Positions 3,580-35,196 of a stretch of 64,000 nucleotides of DNA are shown piece by piece. The notes beneath the pieces were generated by a model. That model searched no databases. It worked only from the letters and a program-made list of their open reading frames with translations, and was not told the DNA's origin. Position 1 is the stretch's first letter. The number at the start of each line of letters is the position of its first letter. A program made the translations under genes and the position numbers. The stretch is taken from contig JAHJHI010000021.1 in assembly GCA_018824085.1 (NCBI GenBank), positions 62,001 through 126,000 of the forward strand, read 5' to 3'. The stretch is from Gammaproteobacteria bacterium. GTDB taxonomy: Bacteria; Pseudomonadota; Gammaproteobacteria; Burkholderiales; Rhodocyclaceae.

Positions 3580-3819
3580 ATGAGCAACAAAGGGCAAATG
3601 CTACAAGACCCCTTCCTCAACACCCTTCGGCGCGAACATGTTCCGGTGGCGATTTATCTGGTCAATGGCATCAAGCTGCAGGGGCAGATCGAGTCATTCG
3701 ATCAGTATGTTGTGCTGCTCAAGAATACGGTGACGCAGATGGTCTACAAGCACGCGATTTCCACCGTGGTCCCGGCCCGTCCGGTCAACATCCAGCATGA
3801 GCAGGGTGAGGGCACTTGA
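3580..3819 (+). CDS. hfq: Hfq RNA chaperone
   Basis: The 79-residue protein has the Sm1 core ([32 protein letters not shown]) and the Sm2 motif [10 protein letters not shown]. It forms a hexameric ring that pairs small RNAs with mRNAs. A purine-rich AAGAGG site precedes the ATG. A 100-base leader separates it from der, so hfq probably has its own promoter, although I could not pick one with confidence. The C-terminal tail after the Sm fold is short, as in many betaproteobacteria. Confidence 0.97.
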
Positions 3820-3855
3820 TAGTTGCCCCCGGCCAGCAGATGAAGGGATTTGCGG

Positions 3856-26969: not shown

Positions 26970-27023
26970 CGTATACCATGCATCGGGAAGCAGCACGTCA
27001 TCGCGTGCCACGGAGAACATGAC

Positions 27024-27881
27024 ATGGGTGAGCCGGCGAATGCATCGCTAGAGGCGTTGCAGAGACTATCAGCCGAACTTGAGTCGGGAGACATCGTCTT
27101 CCCGACCAGCATCGACGTGTCACTGCGCATCCGTCAGGCGCTCGAGAACCCCGACATCAATATCAACGAAGTCGCCCGCCTCGTCGGGGCCGAACCGGTA
27201 TTGAGCGCCAAGGCACTGCGGCTGGCCAATTCGGTTGCGTACAACCGCAGCGGCATCGAGATCAGCGACGTGCGCGCCGCTGTCAATCGGGTCGGCACCG
27301 AACCGATACGCATGCTCACGATGTCGCTCATCGTCCGCCAGATGGTCGACGCCCGATCCGACGAGCGTCTGCGCGTGCTCACGCACGACCTGTGGCAGCA
27401 CACCATTCACGTTTCCGCGCTGTGCTATGTCATAGCGCGGCGCCTGTCGCGGCTGAATCCCGATGCCGCGATGTTCGCCGGCGTTGTGCACGAAATCGGG
27501 CAATTCTACCTGCTGGCCCGTGCATCCGCGTTCCCCGCGCTGCTGCAGCGCGAAGCGGAACTTGGCGGGCTGATGTTCAGCTTCAGTCGCAGCGTCGGGC
27601 GCGCCGTGCTCGAATCGCTGAAAGTGCCGCAGCAGATCATCGATGCCGTGGATGATCCCGCTATCGAAGGCGCCGTCGTGCCGCCGCGTGCCCTGGCTGA
27701 CGTCGTATTTCTCGCCGAAAGCATGGCCGTGTTCCCGAACCCGTTCAGCAACACCACGGCGGACGACGAAAGCATGCTTGCGGGGGCCGCAACGGCGGAC
27801 ATCGATAATGAAACGCTGGAATCCGTATTGGCGGAATCGACGGAAGAGATCGATTCCATCATCGCTTCCTTGCAGATCTGA
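27024..27881 (+). CDS. HDOD domain protein
   Basis: The 285-residue protein has an HDOD domain (about residues 25-220), the non-catalytic relative of HD phosphohydrolases found in signalling proteins. It includes NEVARLVGAEPVLSAKALRLAN and FAGVVHEIGQFYLLAR. HDOD proteins often act with cyclic-di-GMP and two-component networks, but the partner here is unknown. The ATG at 27024 follows CGGAGAAC. The C-terminal 50 residues are acidic. The riboswitch-controlled DUF1631 gene follows. Confidence 0.82.
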   Translation: MGEPANASLEALQRLSAELESGDIVFPTSIDVSLRIRQALENPDININEVARLVGAEPVLSAKALRLANSVAYNRSGIEISDVRAAVNRVGTEPIRMLTMSLIVRQMVDARSDERLRVLTHDLWQHTIHVSALCYVIARRLSRLNPDAAMFAGVVHEIGQFYLLARASAFPALLQREAELGGLMFSFSRSVGRAVLESLKVPQQIIDAVDDPAIEGAVVPPRALADVVFLAESMAVFPNPFSNTTADDESMLAGAATADIDNETLESVLAESTEEIDSIIASLQI

Positions 27882-27888
27882 CGGTTTC

Positions 27889-27915
27889 TAAAGTTCGGCG
27901 TGGCGCGGCCGTTAG
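27889..27915 (+). promoter_or_regulatory. FliA (sigma-28)-like promoter upstream of the riboswitch
   Basis: TAAAGTTC at 27889-27896 and GCCGTTAG at 27908-27915 are separated by 11 bases. This matches the sigma-28 consensus TAAAGTTT-N11-GCCGATAA at 7/8 and 6/8 positions with exact spacing. Transcription would begin about 15 bases before the aptamer core. Prediction by eye. Confidence 0.55.
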
Positions 27916-27937
27916 TCACTGTGACGACTAATTGAAG

Positions 27938-28030
27938 CTGAACCAGGGCAAACCCACCGAAAGGTGGCGACGCAAAGTTTCCGGTCTAACGGGCGCGGTG
28001 CGCTCCATGACAGCGGGGCCGCCGAGACCG
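27938..28030 (+). ncRNA. Cyclic-di-GMP-I (GEMM-I) riboswitch aptamer
   Basis: The core shows the conserved GEMM-I order. CAGGGCAAACC is followed by a CCACC-GAAA-GGTGG tetraloop stem, GCGACGCAAAG, then CCGGTCTAAC (tetraloop receptor side). A second stem (GGGCGC/GCGCTC) and GACAGCGGGGCCGCCGA close the aptamer. GEMM-I RNAs bind cyclic di-GMP. The downstream segment GAGACC (28024-28029) can pair with GGTCTC (28068-28073), and a GC hairpin abuts the ribosome site, giving a plausible expression platform. It controls the DUF1631 gene 84 bases downstream. Confidence 0.9.
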
Positions 28031-28082
28031 CACATTCCGGGTCGCGCACGAGCCTGACTTTGCTCTGGGTCTCAGCCTTGAC

Positions 28083-28100
28083 CGGCCGCCTGCGCGGCCG
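28083..28100 (+). promoter_or_regulatory. GC hairpin before the DUF1631 ribosome site (possible expression platform)
   Basis: CGGCCGC-CTGC-GCGGCCG forms a perfect seven-pair stem ending directly before AAAAAGG, the Shine-Dalgarno region of the ATG at 28114. No T-run follows, so translational rather than transcriptional control by the upstream aptamer is more likely. Confidence 0.5.
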
Positions 28101-28113
28101 AAAAAGGTGAATC

Positions 28114-30441
28114 ATGAGCGCTGCACCCCTGACAACCCCGACTGCCGTATCGCCCGAACGAGGGCGGGTGATCAATGATTGCCGCGACTTCACGCTGCGG
28201 CGGCTGCGCGACTCCCTGCGCGGCATGCTCGGGAAGATCGAAGAAGATCTCGTCGCCCGTGCCGAGGCCGAGCTTGATCGCGACCAGCGCAACCTCTACA
28301 TGTTCACGTGCGGCAAGGCTCGCCAGCAGTGGGCAGGCATCGAACAGACCTTCATCGACCACATCACGAAGTACTTCGACGCGCGTGTGCGCGGCGAGCC
28401 GAATGATCCGGAAGTCACCGTTCCCGCGTCGCTTGACGAACTCAGCCTGATTGACGAGGACGACCTGACGCAGAATCTCGCGTTGAACGAGATCACGCGC
28501 AAGCTCAAGCAGCACTGCGAAGAAGACCTGTTTGGCGTGGAACAGCGGCTGGGCTCGCTCCTTGGCAAGGCAGAGCCGACTGACCGTGACAATCCGCTCG
28601 GCACCGAAGGTGTCGCGCAGGCACTGCGGGCTGCATGCGAGGAAGTGGACACCAGTGTGCAGATGCGCCTTGTGTTGCTGCAATCGCTCGAATCCCAGAT
28701 TTCGCGAGAGCTGTCGACGCTCTACCAGGAGCTGAACGGACGCCTTGTCCGCTATAACGTGTTGCCCGGCTTGCGTCGCGGCTTTCGTCGCGGTGCCGGT
28801 GGACGCGGCATGCCGCCGTCTTCAATGCCGCCAGGTGCTGTTGCCGCGGCGCCGGCCGGAGGAGGCACAGGACTGCCGTCGCTGGATGCGGGCATGACGT
28901 CCTCGATGCAGGGCTTTGGCGCTTCGTCGATACAGGGTTTCGGCGTGCCGTCGATGCAGGGCTTCGGCGAACAGTCGGGTGGCGGGACGACCAGCGAAGT
29001 CGAGGGTGATGTCTATGCCATGCTCGCGCAACTCGTGCAGGGCCAGATGGCCGCCCAGGGCATGCCGATGCAGGCGACGACGGGCGCCGCACCGGCCGGC
29101 AACGGCACGCCGTTCGTGTTCGAGGCCCTCAGCGCGTTGCAGGCCGACGCGGACAATTCCGCTTCCGCCTCGTTCGGCCTTCCGGTCAATCTCCTGCGCG
29201 ATTTCCGCACATCCGATCTCGGCCAGCACCTCGGGCAGTTCGATGCGATCACCGTCGACATCGTGGCCATGTTGTTCGACCTCATTTTCGACGACGCCGA
29301 GATCGCTGATCCGATCAAGGCGCTGGTCGGACGGCTGCAGATTCCGCTGGTGAAGGTGGCGATGCTGGATCGCAGTTTCTTCTCGAGCAAGGCCCATCCG
29401 GCACGCCGCCTGCTCGACGTCATATCCCAGTCGATGATGCGCTGGGGACGGGACGTCGGTCATGAGGATCCGCTCTATATCAAGCTGGCCGAGATCGTCG
29501 ACCGGATCCTGCGTGACTTCGAGCGCGATCTGAGCCTGTTCGAGGCATGCCGTACGGATCTCGAGGAATTCGTGGCTTCTCTGGAGGCGGACGAAACGCA
29601 GCGCGCCGAAGCGGCGGCCGTCATCGCCGCCGACCGGGAACAGGAGCGCATTCGTCGCGACGACATGCGGCGCACGGCCGACCTCGATGTGGACGAGCGG
29701 TTGCACACGCCCTTGCCGGGCGTGGTGCAAAGATTGCTCGACGGCGTGTGGCGGCGCTTGCTGCGCCTGCTCGCCGAGCGTGGCGACGAAGCCGCGGTCG
29801 AATACAAACAGGCGCTGGCCACGGCCGACGAACTGATCTGGAGCGTGCATCCCAAGGCCGACGGCGACGACCGGCGATCGCTGATCGTGGCGCTGCCGGG
29901 CTTGCTGCGCCGGCTCAACGAGGGCTTCGATGCGGTGGACACGCACCCGGCCGACAAACTGATGCTGCTCAACGGACTGTTCGATCTGCACGCACAGTGG
30001 ATCAAGCCGGGCGCCTCGGCGTCGGTGCCGGCGGTCGAACAATGGGTGCCGGGCGCCGATTCGGCCAACGACGACGTGCCGCCACCGCAGGTGGTCAGCG
30101 AGCACCTGGAACAGGACGGCTTCGAACTCGAAGACATTTCGCTGAGCCTGCCTGCCTATCTCGACATTCCAGGCCAGGACCGCGTGTCCGAGCTCAAGCG
30201 TGGCGATTGGGTGGAATTCCGTCAGGCAGACGGAGAATTTGCGCGCATGCGACTGAACTGGGTGAGTCCGCAACGCGGCATCTATCTGTTCACGAATCCG
30301 GGTTCGCCGCGCGCGACGTCGATCGCGCCGGATGCACTCGCGCTGCAGCTCGCACGCGGTGACGCGCGCATCGTCGATACGGCGCCGATGTTCGATCGTG
30401 CCGTGAGTCAGGCACTTGGCCAGTGCGCAAGGCCTGCCTGA
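28114..30441 (+). CDS. DUF1631 family protein
   Basis: The 775-residue cytoplasmic protein belongs by overall look to DUF1631, a proteobacterial family without assigned function. The N-terminal 230 residues are helical and charged. A Gly/Pro/Met-rich linker at about 235-295 contains three 8-residue repeats (SSMQGFGA type). The central helical region (about 330-690) is the DUF1631 core. The last 100 residues (LKRGDWVEFRQADGEFARMRLNWVS) look like a small beta-barrel reminiscent of PilZ, but I do not see the RxxxR...DxSxxG PilZ signature. Expression is probably controlled by the upstream c-di-GMP riboswitch. Confidence 0.75.
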   Translation: MSAAPLTTPTAVSPERGRVINDCRDFTLRRLRDSLRGMLGKIEEDLVARAEAELDRDQRNLYMFTCGKARQQWAGIEQTFIDHITKYFDARVRGEPNDPEVTVPASLDELSLIDEDDLTQNLALNEITRKLKQHCEEDLFGVEQRLGSLLGKAEPTDRDNPLGTEGVAQALRAACEEVDTSVQMRLVLLQSLESQISRELSTLYQELNGRLVRYNVLPGLRRGFRRGAGGRGMPPSSMPPGAVAAAPAGGGTGLPSLDAGMTSSMQGFGASSIQGFGVPSMQGFGEQSGGGTTSEVEGDVYAMLAQLVQGQMAAQGMPMQATTGAAPAGNGTPFVFEALSALQADADNSASASFGLPVNLLRDFRTSDLGQHLGQFDAITVDIVAMLFDLIFDDAEIADPIKALVGRLQIPLVKVAMLDRSFFSSKAHPARRLLDVISQSMMRWGRDVGHEDPLYIKLAEIVDRILRDFERDLSLFEACRTDLEEFVASLEADETQRAEAAAVIAADREQERIRRDDMRRTADLDVDERLHTPLPGVVQRLLDGVWRRLLRLLAERGDEAAVEYKQALATADELIWSVHPKADGDDRRSLIVALPGLLRRLNEGFDAVDTHPADKLMLLNGLFDLHAQWIKPGASASVPAVEQWVPGADSANDDVPPPQVVSEHLEQDGFELEDISLSLPAYLDIPGQDRVSELKRGDWVEFRQADGEFARMRLNWVSPQRGIYLFTNPGSPRATSIAPDALALQLARGDARIVDTAPMFDRAVSQALGQCARPA
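28900..28971 (+). repeat. Three tandem 24-base repeats inside the DUF1631 gene
   Basis: Three consecutive 24-base units encode S-S-M-Q-G-F-G-A, S-S-I-Q-G-F-G-V and P-S-M-Q-G-F-G-E (residues 263-286), a low-complexity linker. Such units can change copy number by slippage. Confidence 0.8.
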
Positions 30442-32907: not shown

Positions 32908-32935
32908 TGAAGTTCGCGCAACCGATTGCCGTTGA
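32908..32935 (+). promoter_or_regulatory. Weak FliA-like promoter upstream of the MHYT-GGDEF-EAL gene
   Basis: TGAAGTTC (32908-32915) and GCCGTTGA (32928-32935) resemble sigma-28 boxes, but the spacer is 12 rather than 11 bases. It is noted because the boxes resemble those before the riboswitch. Confidence 0.25.
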
Positions 32936-33048
32936 TGGACAGATGGCCGCCCTTCGCCGGCTCTTCACGCAAAGGAAACCCCATTGATTCTGCTCGCCGG
33001 CTGTTCAGCGAGAACCGTTGGGCGCATCGTCCGTCAGGTGGCCCGGCC

Positions 33049-35196
33049 ATGAAGGGCGAATACAGCGCCGTTCTCGTCCTGCTGTCGCTGGCAGTGGCGG
33101 TCATGGCCTCGTGGTCCGCGCTCGACCTGGCGCGTCGGGTGACCTCGGGCGACAGCGCCGCGACGCGCCTCTGGCTCGTGACGGGCGCGCTGGTGCTCGG
33201 ATCGGGCATCTGGTCCATGCACTTCGTCGGCATGCTGGCGTTCAGTCTGCCGATCAAGCTTGGCTACGATGTATTGACGACGGTTTTTTCGTGGTTCATC
33301 GCCGTGCTCGTTTCCCTGCTGGCGCTGTTTCTTGCCACCTGGCAAAGCGCCAATCTGCGACTGGTGCTCGGCGGCTCCGTGATGATGGGGCTGGGCGTGT
33401 CGGCCATGCACTACAGCGGCATGGCCGCCATGCGCATCACGCCGGCAATCCAGTATGACCCGCTGCTGTTCGCTGCCTCGGTGCTGATCGCGATTCTGGC
33501 GTCGGCCACTGCCTTGTTCATCATCTTTCATCTGCGTGGCCTGCGTGGCAGCAGCCTGCTCTGGAGAAAGTGTGTTTCCGCGCTGGTGATGGGGTTCGCG
33601 ATCACCGGCATGCACTACACCGGAATGGCTGCTGCACGCTTTGACGGCGCCAGTGTCTGCCTCGCGGCGAACGATCTCGATCCCGGCTGGCTTGCCGTCA
33701 CCGTGGCTATGCTGGCCATCGGTTTCATGATGGTCGGCATCGTCGCGGCGATCTTCGATCACCGCATGGAACAGCGGACGAACAAGCTCTCGTCGCAGTT
33801 GCGCGTCGCAAACGGTGAACTCATGCACGCGGCGCTGCACGACGCGCTGACGGATCTGCCGAACCGGGTGAGTTTCGACGCCCGTCTCGACGCAGCGACA
33901 CGTCAGGCGCGTGCACACAACGGCAAGGTGGCCGTGCTCTACATCGATCTCGACGGCTTCAAGCCGATCAACGACGTGCTCGGTCATCACGTCGGTGACG
34001 AGGTGCTGCGCCAGGTCGCCCAGCGCCTGCGCACGGGTTTGCGTGAGGACGATTTCGTCGCGCGCATCGGCGGCGACGAGTTCGTCCTGGTGTCGCAGGG
34101 GCCGATGGATCGCATCGCCGCAGGCCGGCTTGCGCAGCGCATTGTCGATGCGACCGCGCTGCCGATCCACGTCGTGGAACAGGACATCCATGTGTCGGCA
34201 TCGGTCGGCGTTGCACTGTTTCCCGACGACGGTGACGAAACGCGCGTGCTGGTATGCGCCGACGCCGCGATGTACGCGGCCAAGCACGCCGGACGCAATA
34301 CCTGGCGCCTGTTCAGCGAAGACATGACCGGCACCGGCAACGACATTCTCGGCATGCAGCGCGCGATACGGCGCGCACTCGACGAAGATGAGTTCGTGCT
34401 GCACTACCAGCCCAAGGTCAGCGCGCTCGACGGCTCCCTGCGCGGAGTCGAGGCGCTCATCCGCTGGCAGGACCCGCAGCGCGGCATGGTGTCGCCCGGC
34501 GAGTTCATCCCGGTGGCCGAACGGTTCGGTCTGATCAACGCGATCGGTTTCTGGACGCTGCGCCAGGCCTGTTGCCAGGCTCGTGACTGGCAGCGTGCCG
34601 GGCAGCACATCCAGGTGGCGGTGAATCTGTCGGCGCAGCAGTTCCGCCAGCCGGATCTGGTCGAGCGCGTGCGCGCATGCATCGAGGAATTCGGCATCGA
34701 CCCGGCGCTGCTGGCACTCGAAATCACCGAATCGGTGGTGATGGAAACGTCGTCGAGCGCGCGACGCGCACTCGACGAACTCAAGCAGATGGGCGTCACC
34801 TTGTCGATCGATGACTTCGGAACAGGCTACTCAAGTCTCGCCTACCTGTGCCGCCTCCCGGCACGCCAGCTCAAGATCGATCGCTCCTTCGTGGTCGACA
34901 TGGATGCAGTGGCCGAGGCGCGCACCGTCGTCGAAGCGGTCATCCGGCTGGCACATTCGCTGCGCATGGAGGTGGTGGCGGAAGGGGTCGAGCGTGCAGA
35001 ACAGGTGGCGTTGCTGCGTGCGCTCGGCTGCGACCTCATCCAGGGGTATTACTTCTCCCGTCCGGTGTTGCCGGCGCAGATCGAGGCGCTGCTTGCGAGC
35101 GGTCAGCTGCCGCTGCTGGTCGAGCGTGCCGTGTGGACGGACGCGGGCCGTGGCCGGGACGATGGCGTACGGCGCCTGATCGTGGCGCAGGCCTAG
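33049..35196 (+). CDS. MHYT-GGDEF-EAL membrane protein (bifunctional cyclic-di-GMP enzyme)
   Basis: The 715-residue protein begins with an MHYT sensor of about seven helices; three MHYT-type motifs are at residues 57 (MHFV), 120 (MHYS) and 188 (MHYT). A GGDEF domain follows with GGDEF at 341-345 and an RxxD inhibitory site just before it. The EAL domain has EAL at 468-470 plus IDDFGTGYSSLAYL and VVAEGVE. Both catalytic signatures are intact, so synthesis and breakdown of cyclic di-GMP are possible. The MHYT domain may sense oxygen, CO or NO through copper. I chose the ATG at 33049 at the first membrane helix; longer frames start upstream. Confidence 0.92.
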   Translation: MKGEYSAVLVLLSLAVAVMASWSALDLARRVTSGDSAATRLWLVTGALVLGSGIWSMHFVGMLAFSLPIKLGYDVLTTVFSWFIAVLVSLLALFLATWQSANLRLVLGGSVMMGLGVSAMHYSGMAAMRITPAIQYDPLLFAASVLIAILASATALFIIFHLRGLRGSSLLWRKCVSALVMGFAITGMHYTGMAAARFDGASVCLAANDLDPGWLAVTVAMLAIGFMMVGIVAAIFDHRMEQRTNKLSSQLRVANGELMHAALHDALTDLPNRVSFDARLDAATRQARAHNGKVAVLYIDLDGFKPINDVLGHHVGDEVLRQVAQRLRTGLREDDFVARIGGDEFVLVSQGPMDRIAAGRLAQRIVDATALPIHVVEQDIHVSASVGVALFPDDGDETRVLVCADAAMYAAKHAGRNTWRLFSEDMTGTGNDILGMQRAIRRALDEDEFVLHYQPKVSALDGSLRGVEALIRWQDPQRGMVSPGEFIPVAERFGLINAIGFWTLRQACCQARDWQRAGQHIQVAVNLSAQQFRQPDLVERVRACIEEFGIDPALLALEITESVVMETSSSARRALDELKQMGVTLSIDDFGTGYSSLAYLCRLPARQLKIDRSFVVDMDAVAEARTVVEAVIRLAHSLRMEVVAEGVERAEQVALLRALGCDLIQGYYFSRPVLPAQIEALLASGQLPLLVERAVWTDAGRGRDDGVRRLIVAQA

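Follow-up and report, generated by a model that had tools for sequence, protein, structure and literature searches.

What controls the gene for a DUF1631 protein when its leader appears to hold both a flagellar promoter and a riboswitch for cyclic di-GMP (c-di-GMP)? The question arises from a stretch of 64,000 nucleotides (nt) of a Rhodocyclaceae genome within the class Gammaproteobacteria (assembly GCA_018824085.1, contig JAHJHI010000021.1, positions 62,001 to 126,000 of the forward strand). This whole stretch is called the window and is numbered from its first letter. Positions 27889-28113 are predicted to control a single gene through two inputs, and it is probable from the sequence that DUF1631 is under dual control by the flagellar sigma factor FliA (sigma-28) and by c-di-GMP. 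A preliminary description of the DNA had predicted this dual control. Support comes from the repeated pairing of riboswitch and DUF1631 in other genomes, from sigma-28 sites that recur in DUF1631 leaders and not in control leaders, from a FliA gene in the source genome, and from flagellar promoters of the same type. The features of the locus are as follows.

27024..27881, + strand: HDOD-domain gene, start codon inferred (PF08668, 109.1 bits on frame 26991-27878)
27889..27915, + strand: sigma-28 (FliA)-type promoter TAAAGTTC-N11-GCCGTTAG (motif score; recurs before flagellin and motA)
27937..28026, + strand: c-di-GMP-I riboswitch aptamer (RF01051, 62.6 bits, gathering 35, model 1-87)
28059..28076, + strand: candidate anti-aptamer strand, able to pair with the aptamer 5' strand (ligand-free minimum-energy fold)
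28072..28079, + strand: anti-Shine-Dalgarno strand UCAGCCUU, shared in part with the anti-aptamer strand (from folding the downstream segment by itself)
28083..28100, + strand: hairpin CGGCCGC-cugc-GCGGCCG, 5' of the ribosome site (fold of the downstream part alone; genus alignment)
28104..28110, + strand: Shine-Dalgarno (SD) sequence AAGGUGA (sequence; 3 nt ahead of the ATG at 28114)
28114..30441, + strand: DUF1631 gene, 775 amino acids, the target of the leader (PF07793, 510.8 bits)

The HDOD stop codon is followed after 7 nt by the sigma-28 site, after a further 21 nt by the aptamer, and then by an 87-nt linker that ends at the DUF1631 start. The promoter boxes TAAAGTTC and GCCGTTAG occupy 27889-27896 and 27908-27915, separated by N11. 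The anti-aptamer strand consists of UUUGCUCUGG at 28059-28068 and UCAGC at 28072-28076, and its partner is the aptamer 5' strand GCUGAACCAGGGCAAA at 27937-27952.

Association of the c-di-GMP-I aptamer with DUF1631

A covariance search with RF01051, proposed together with the preliminary description, matched 27937-28026 over the full length of the model (1-87) with an E value of 7e-10. The score of 62.6 bits lies above the gathering threshold of 35 and bears out the complete GEMM-I (c-di-GMP-I) aptamer described earlier. No second RF01051 match was found in the source genome (4.28 Mb). The residues that we take to be the ligand-contact positions of c-di-GMP-I aptamers, G20, A47 and C92 in Vc2, are conserved as G, A and C in 54/54 leaders, that of the window among them, and G20 presumably argues against a variant for cyclic AMP-GMP.

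Among named organisms, the DUF1631 protein is closest to those of Methyloversatilis and of an unclassified betaproteobacterium (L062-L070, 72-76% identity), and the window is accordingly taken to be Methyloversatilis-like. A survey of DUF1631 leaders in relatives, likewise suggested beforehand, was performed with a covariance model built from 30 aptamers, which was applied to the window, to 12 survey loci and to 80 named DUF1631 loci. An aptamer was found directly 5' of DUF1631 on the same strand in 53/80 named loci, which is no unbiased frequency because a family alignment supplied the 80 loci as its best matches; they also include three (L073, L121 and L124) without usable upstream DNA. In the 53 loci the aptamer lies 83-287 nt ahead of the rule-chosen start codon, and none has a second match. 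The 12 survey loci, which had no upstream RF01051 match, gave none with the custom model either. Because some loci of the family had gone into the training of the model, 15 loci (14 model-positive ones and L130) were re-scanned with Rfam. RF01051 was recovered in 13 and RF03167 in L089, and L130 gave neither. The L089 aptamer (3747-3842), which precedes DUF1631, scored best with RF03167 (c-di-GMP-I-GGC), a clan sister of RF01051.

Among 150 genomes of the family of the source organism, RF01051 was present in 75 (143 matches in total) and DUF1631 in 74. When positions were compared by eye, an aptamer lay 5' of DUF1631 on the same strand in 21/74 DUF1631 genomes; this survey and the 80 named loci overlap in genomes. 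In a class-wide sample of 274 genomes, DUF1631 was detected in 94 and RF01051 in 49. Among the matches listed, the arrangement was seen in the source genome only and in none of the 93 other DUF1631 genomes, a result that counts against the proposed control. The riboswitch-DUF1631 pairing, frequent in the family survey and not seen elsewhere in the class among the matches listed, is therefore common in the family and its nearest relatives, and not general. A quick tree was made from 78 DUF1631 proteins. On it the riboswitch label required 9 changes, compared with 20.7 for shuffled labels, and the sigma-28 motif required 6.

Some other arrangements were observed. At G053:C1:3592067-3595869 and G106:C24:101710-105199, one riboswitch is followed by apparently two tandem DUF1631 genes. 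In another family of the class a c-di-GMP-I aptamer lies ~300 nt 3' of DUF1631 (G362:C32:89281-91992). Two divergent c-di-GMP-I aptamers stand ~350 nt apart at G003:C18:88577-89104, and one genome of the class-wide sample (G316) has fifteen c-di-GMP-I matches.

Sigma-28 promoter motifs upstream of the aptamer

The usual FliA consensus is assumed here to be TAAAGTTT-N11-GCCGATAA. The window promoter agrees with it in 13/16 positions under strict counting (7/8 and 6/8) and in 14/16 with M and W allowed, and the 7/8 and 6/8 counts and the exact N11 spacing had been given in the preliminary description. The 80 nt 5' of the aptamer were scored against TMAAGTTT-N11-GCCGWTAA in 54 DUF1631 leaders, the window's included, and in 27 control riboswitch leaders, i.e. 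the 30 loci L002-L031 minus the DUF1631-linked L006 and L025 and the short contig L013. With N11 only, a score of at least 13/16 was reached by 17/54 DUF1631 leaders and 0/27 controls. With N11 or N12 the numbers were 22/54 leaders, 0/27 controls and 3/2160 dinucleotide shuffles; at a threshold of 12/16 (N11 or N12), controls reach 6/27. The 22 sites are located 17-42 nt 5' of the aptamer and are spread over several clades.

The source genome encodes FliA (272.1 bits, over the cut-off) as well as flagellins. A stringent sigma-28 pattern, designed after the window site had been seen, gave 6 matches in 4.28 Mb compared with 3 for the backward control. The 6 comprise the window site, a flagellin-associated site (C20:75595, with the flagellin domain beginning at 75715), motA (PF20560), an HDOD gene and 2 unassigned sites. 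With 6 such sites per 4.28 Mb, one placed 21 nt ahead of the only aptamer of the genome is not expected by chance. FliA scored over the cut-off in 41/50 genomes of relatives; the 50 do not include L063, L064, L068 and L133. A second FliA-family sigma factor, over the cut-off, is present at G000:C27:12671-13300, with flagellin genes on the same contig.

Expression platform and switching direction

No terminator-like site was found in window positions 27800-28200, so control is most likely translational. Transcription termination was rejected as the platform on the same result. In the ligand-free minimum-energy fold, the aptamer 5' strand was paired with 28059-28076. When the downstream part was folded alone, UCAGCCUU paired onto the SD sequence AAGGUGA and enclosed the GC hairpin. 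The competing stem and the ribosome-site hairpin of the preliminary description can both form, and for the hairpin some covariation was seen, by score only.

In the alignment of 11 genus leaders, 87.7% of cells in the SD stem are paired, with 87.0% in the UCAGCCUU/SD helix and 88.3% in the GC hairpin. The covariation score of the SD stem was 0.144 compared with 0.092 for shuffled alignments (2/500 as high) and 0-0.081 when the stem was slid. The anti-aptamer helix GCUGA/UCAGC had 98.2% of cells paired and its extension 62.9%. For the competing stem covariation carries no information, as the aptamer that forms its 5' strand is invariant.

When the aptamer was forced in folding, mean SD accessibility over the 54 leaders decreased from 0.38 to 0.27; five of them (L066, L084, L093, L102 and L107) had no SD word, and a fixed stretch was used. 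Accessibility dropped by >0.1 in 24/54 leaders. Shuffled linkers showed a decrease too, -0.043 compared with -0.118 for the real ones, and this control reduces the apparent direction signal to a modest trend. Compared with their own 12 linker shuffles, 16 leaders fell below all and 6 were at or above all. From the folding and the covariation score, the most likely direction, and a modestly favoured one, is that c-di-GMP turns DUF1631 off, because the formed aptamer would free UCAGCCUU to pair with AAGGUGA and close the gene, and in the ligand-free state the aptamer 5' strand would capture and hold the UCAGCCUU segment.

Several results weigh against this direction and its structural basis. The two folds are no more stable than shuffles (z of -1.2 and -1.1). 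Only 2 pairs of the SD stem changed on both sides, compared with a shuffled mean of 1.2 (171/500 shuffles as high); in the GC hairpin 2/7 pairs did, and the further pair types of the stem (6, shuffled mean 5.7) do not exceed shuffles either. The predicted SD accessibility of the window leader is flat, with 0.15 in the free and 0.16 in the bound state. Among the members of its clade, L062-L064 and L068 fall, L065, L066 and L070 rise, and three are nearly flat. The real SD change lies below the shuffle mean in just 27/54 leaders.

The same element could also work with the opposite sign: c-di-GMP would open the ribosome site, and DUF1631 would be a braking or surface-transition protein in FliA-active cells at rising c-di-GMP. 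The rise of accessibility by >0.1 in 7/54 leaders, among them the three rising members of the window clade, fits such a switch, as does the lack of a drop in the window's own leader. The larger number of leaders with a drop, the excess of leaders below all of their linker shuffles and the retention of the SD-closing stem in the genus argue against it, and we regard it as rather unlikely.

Proposed model for DUF1631 control

We infer a series of events that extends from FliA use and the start site, through ligand binding and the translational mode, to the direction of switching and the role of the protein. FliA RNA polymerase would start the mRNA a few bases past 27915, and with a FliA-driven start DUF1631 would be transcribed along with late flagellar genes. 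The 5' leader would then fold into the c-di-GMP-I aptamer, whose state would set ribosome-site access on the DUF1631 mRNA. If true, FliA and c-di-GMP act in series on one mRNA, initiation first and leader second. With c-di-GMP as the off signal, DUF1631 would act in the motile phase, and in some lineages its gene stands next to one for an HDOD or EAL-HDOD protein. The recurrent riboswitch and the recurrent flagellar promoter would tell when the cell wants the protein. DUF1631 could thus be tested as a component of the swim-or-settle decision; its family is widespread (94/274 class-wide genomes).

A wider reading is offered tentatively. DUF1631, in several lineages together with an HDOD or EAL-HDOD partner, could be an unrecognised motile-state output module in Betaproteobacteria. 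It would be made only once flagellar assembly releases FliA and c-di-GMP is low, and shut off at the RNA level as c-di-GMP rises. The riboswitch would be older and kept or lost across the tree, and the flagellar promoter would have been gained and lost several times.

The use of FliA at this site was weighed against transcription that begins at a promoter which escaped detection or comes from the HDOD gene, with the sigma-28-like site unused and the riboswitch alone of importance. In line with that explanation, 32/54 leaders are below the sigma-28 threshold, sigma-70-like hexamers are visible by eye in some leaders, and the HDOD stop codon is only 7 nt 5' of the site. The relation between FliA and the sites also counts against FliA control. 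Genomes without FliA had modestly lower leader scores (Mann-Whitney p 0.019-0.025, uncorrected for kinship, 60 nt scanned, which misses the farther sites of L066, L092, L099 and L101); L075, whose FliA is partial and scores under the cut-off, was grouped with the FliA-bearing genomes in this comparison. At fixed thresholds, the presence of FliA made no significant difference (Fisher 0.07-0.23), and the L085 genome bin has a score-13 site, yet no FliA match over the cut-off. On the other side, no sigma-70-like site was found when 27800-28200 of the window was scanned. The motif is present at a score of at least 13/16 in all ten Methyloversatilis-clade leaders, it recurs in separate clades, and it stands ahead of flagellin and motA in the source genome. 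An unused site is accordingly considered improbable.

Comparison with known systems

In Clostridioides difficile, a transcriptional c-di-GMP-I riboswitch precedes flagellar genes and likewise ties c-di-GMP to motility genes. That riboswitch belongs to another phylum, has another target and is transcriptional, whereas no terminator was found in the window leader. With other RF01051 riboswitches the window shares a full-length aptamer above the gathering threshold, the assumed ligand contacts and the position in a 5' leader; a DUF1631 target and a sigma-28 promoter directly 5' of the aptamer were not found described for them among the open-licence literature matches listed.

The nearest precedent found is merRNA of Bdellovibrio bacteriovorus. 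In the part of PMC3627812 consulted, the attack phase combines FliA-type promoters with the abundant merRNA, which contains a c-di-GMP riboswitch, within one motile-phase programme. Table 2 of that paper marks no FliA promoter for merRNA, and its authors found no conserved reading frame behind it, whereas in the window promoter, aptamer and conserved gene stand in series. A leader that serves chiefly as an RNA of this kind, acting in trans or binding c-di-GMP, with DUF1631 incidental, would draw on the shared motile-phase programme and is very improbable, given that the aptamer directly precedes DUF1631 in 53/80 named loci and that no such frame was found behind merRNA (PMC3627812).

Among the open-licence literature matches listed, there was no report of DUF1631 as a riboswitch target or of FliA and c-di-GMP in series. 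This agrees with the preliminary description, which did not count DUF1631 among the described riboswitch targets. The riboswitch class is already known; these matches gave no description of the DUF1631 target or of the dual control. In the portions consulted, the open-licence papers that name DUF1631 mention it in lists, and the word riboswitch does not occur, and an orphan-riboswitch review covers c-di-GMP-I targets in general terms (PMC7266159).

The DUF1631 protein

The identity of the protein given in the preliminary description was confirmed by PF07793, which matched residues 15-769 of 775 with 510.8 bits against a cut-off of 33.7. Pfam lists DUF1631 as a family of ~740 residues with unknown function, and the motility-phase role suggested here is deduced from control and neighbours only. 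The AlphaFold2 model (mean predicted local distance difference test, pLDDT, 82.3; predicted template modelling score 0.59) is helical, with a low-confidence segment at residues 224-298 and a small C-terminal beta-barrel at ~659-754. A model of the C-terminal part from one sequence was poor (mean pLDDT 69.8). Foldseek gave no match to the AlphaFold2 model at E 0.001, and a profile search against PDB sequences gave no DUF1631 match up to E 1. Among the VIA-align matches listed, those on the barrel were mainly TraI translocation-signal and Spindlin/Tudor structures (Z 5-6.4), which may reflect a common arrangement only. For a PilZ C-terminal fold, which the sequence had suggested, there was no PilZ profile match and none among the best 50 Foldseek and 50 VIA-align matches, a result that does not exclude PilZ.

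The best-scoring named NCBIfam model for the protein was NF058594, 'PacR family protein', with 195.6 bits, far below its cut-off of 1200. PacR was rejected as a function label; among the literature matches listed there was nothing on a DUF1631-like protein. PacR activity was likewise not found among the open-licence matches listed; the PacR text consulted, itself an excerpt, concerned the phage SPP1 pac site.

Neighbouring genes

The HDOD gene immediately upstream of the leader, as described earlier, was verified with PF08668 (109.1 bits). A same-strand HDOD gene lies beside DUF1631 in 20/53 riboswitch loci, compared with 5/27 others and 2/30 shorter control loci. Of the 20, 14 are upstream (9 in the Methyloversatilis clade) and 6 downstream. 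Five of the seven sequences behind the HDOD profile came from loci that were also counted, so that for those five the counts are in-sample, and an HDOD match 3' of DUF1631 in L110 was left uncounted by the distance rule. The downstream neighbour of L112, the only one scanned, scored over the cut-off for HDOD and below it for EAL. In neighbour clustering, several clusters were probably reverse-frame readings, and only Pfam-checked clusters were used.

A MHYT-GGDEF-EAL gene is located at window positions 32926-35196, ~2.5 kb 3' of DUF1631. The start of a second HDOD gene of the source genome (L148 1501-2422, G000:C37:41181) is preceded at ~40 nt by a stringent sigma-28 site, a hint that HDOD proteins may be within the FliA regulon here.

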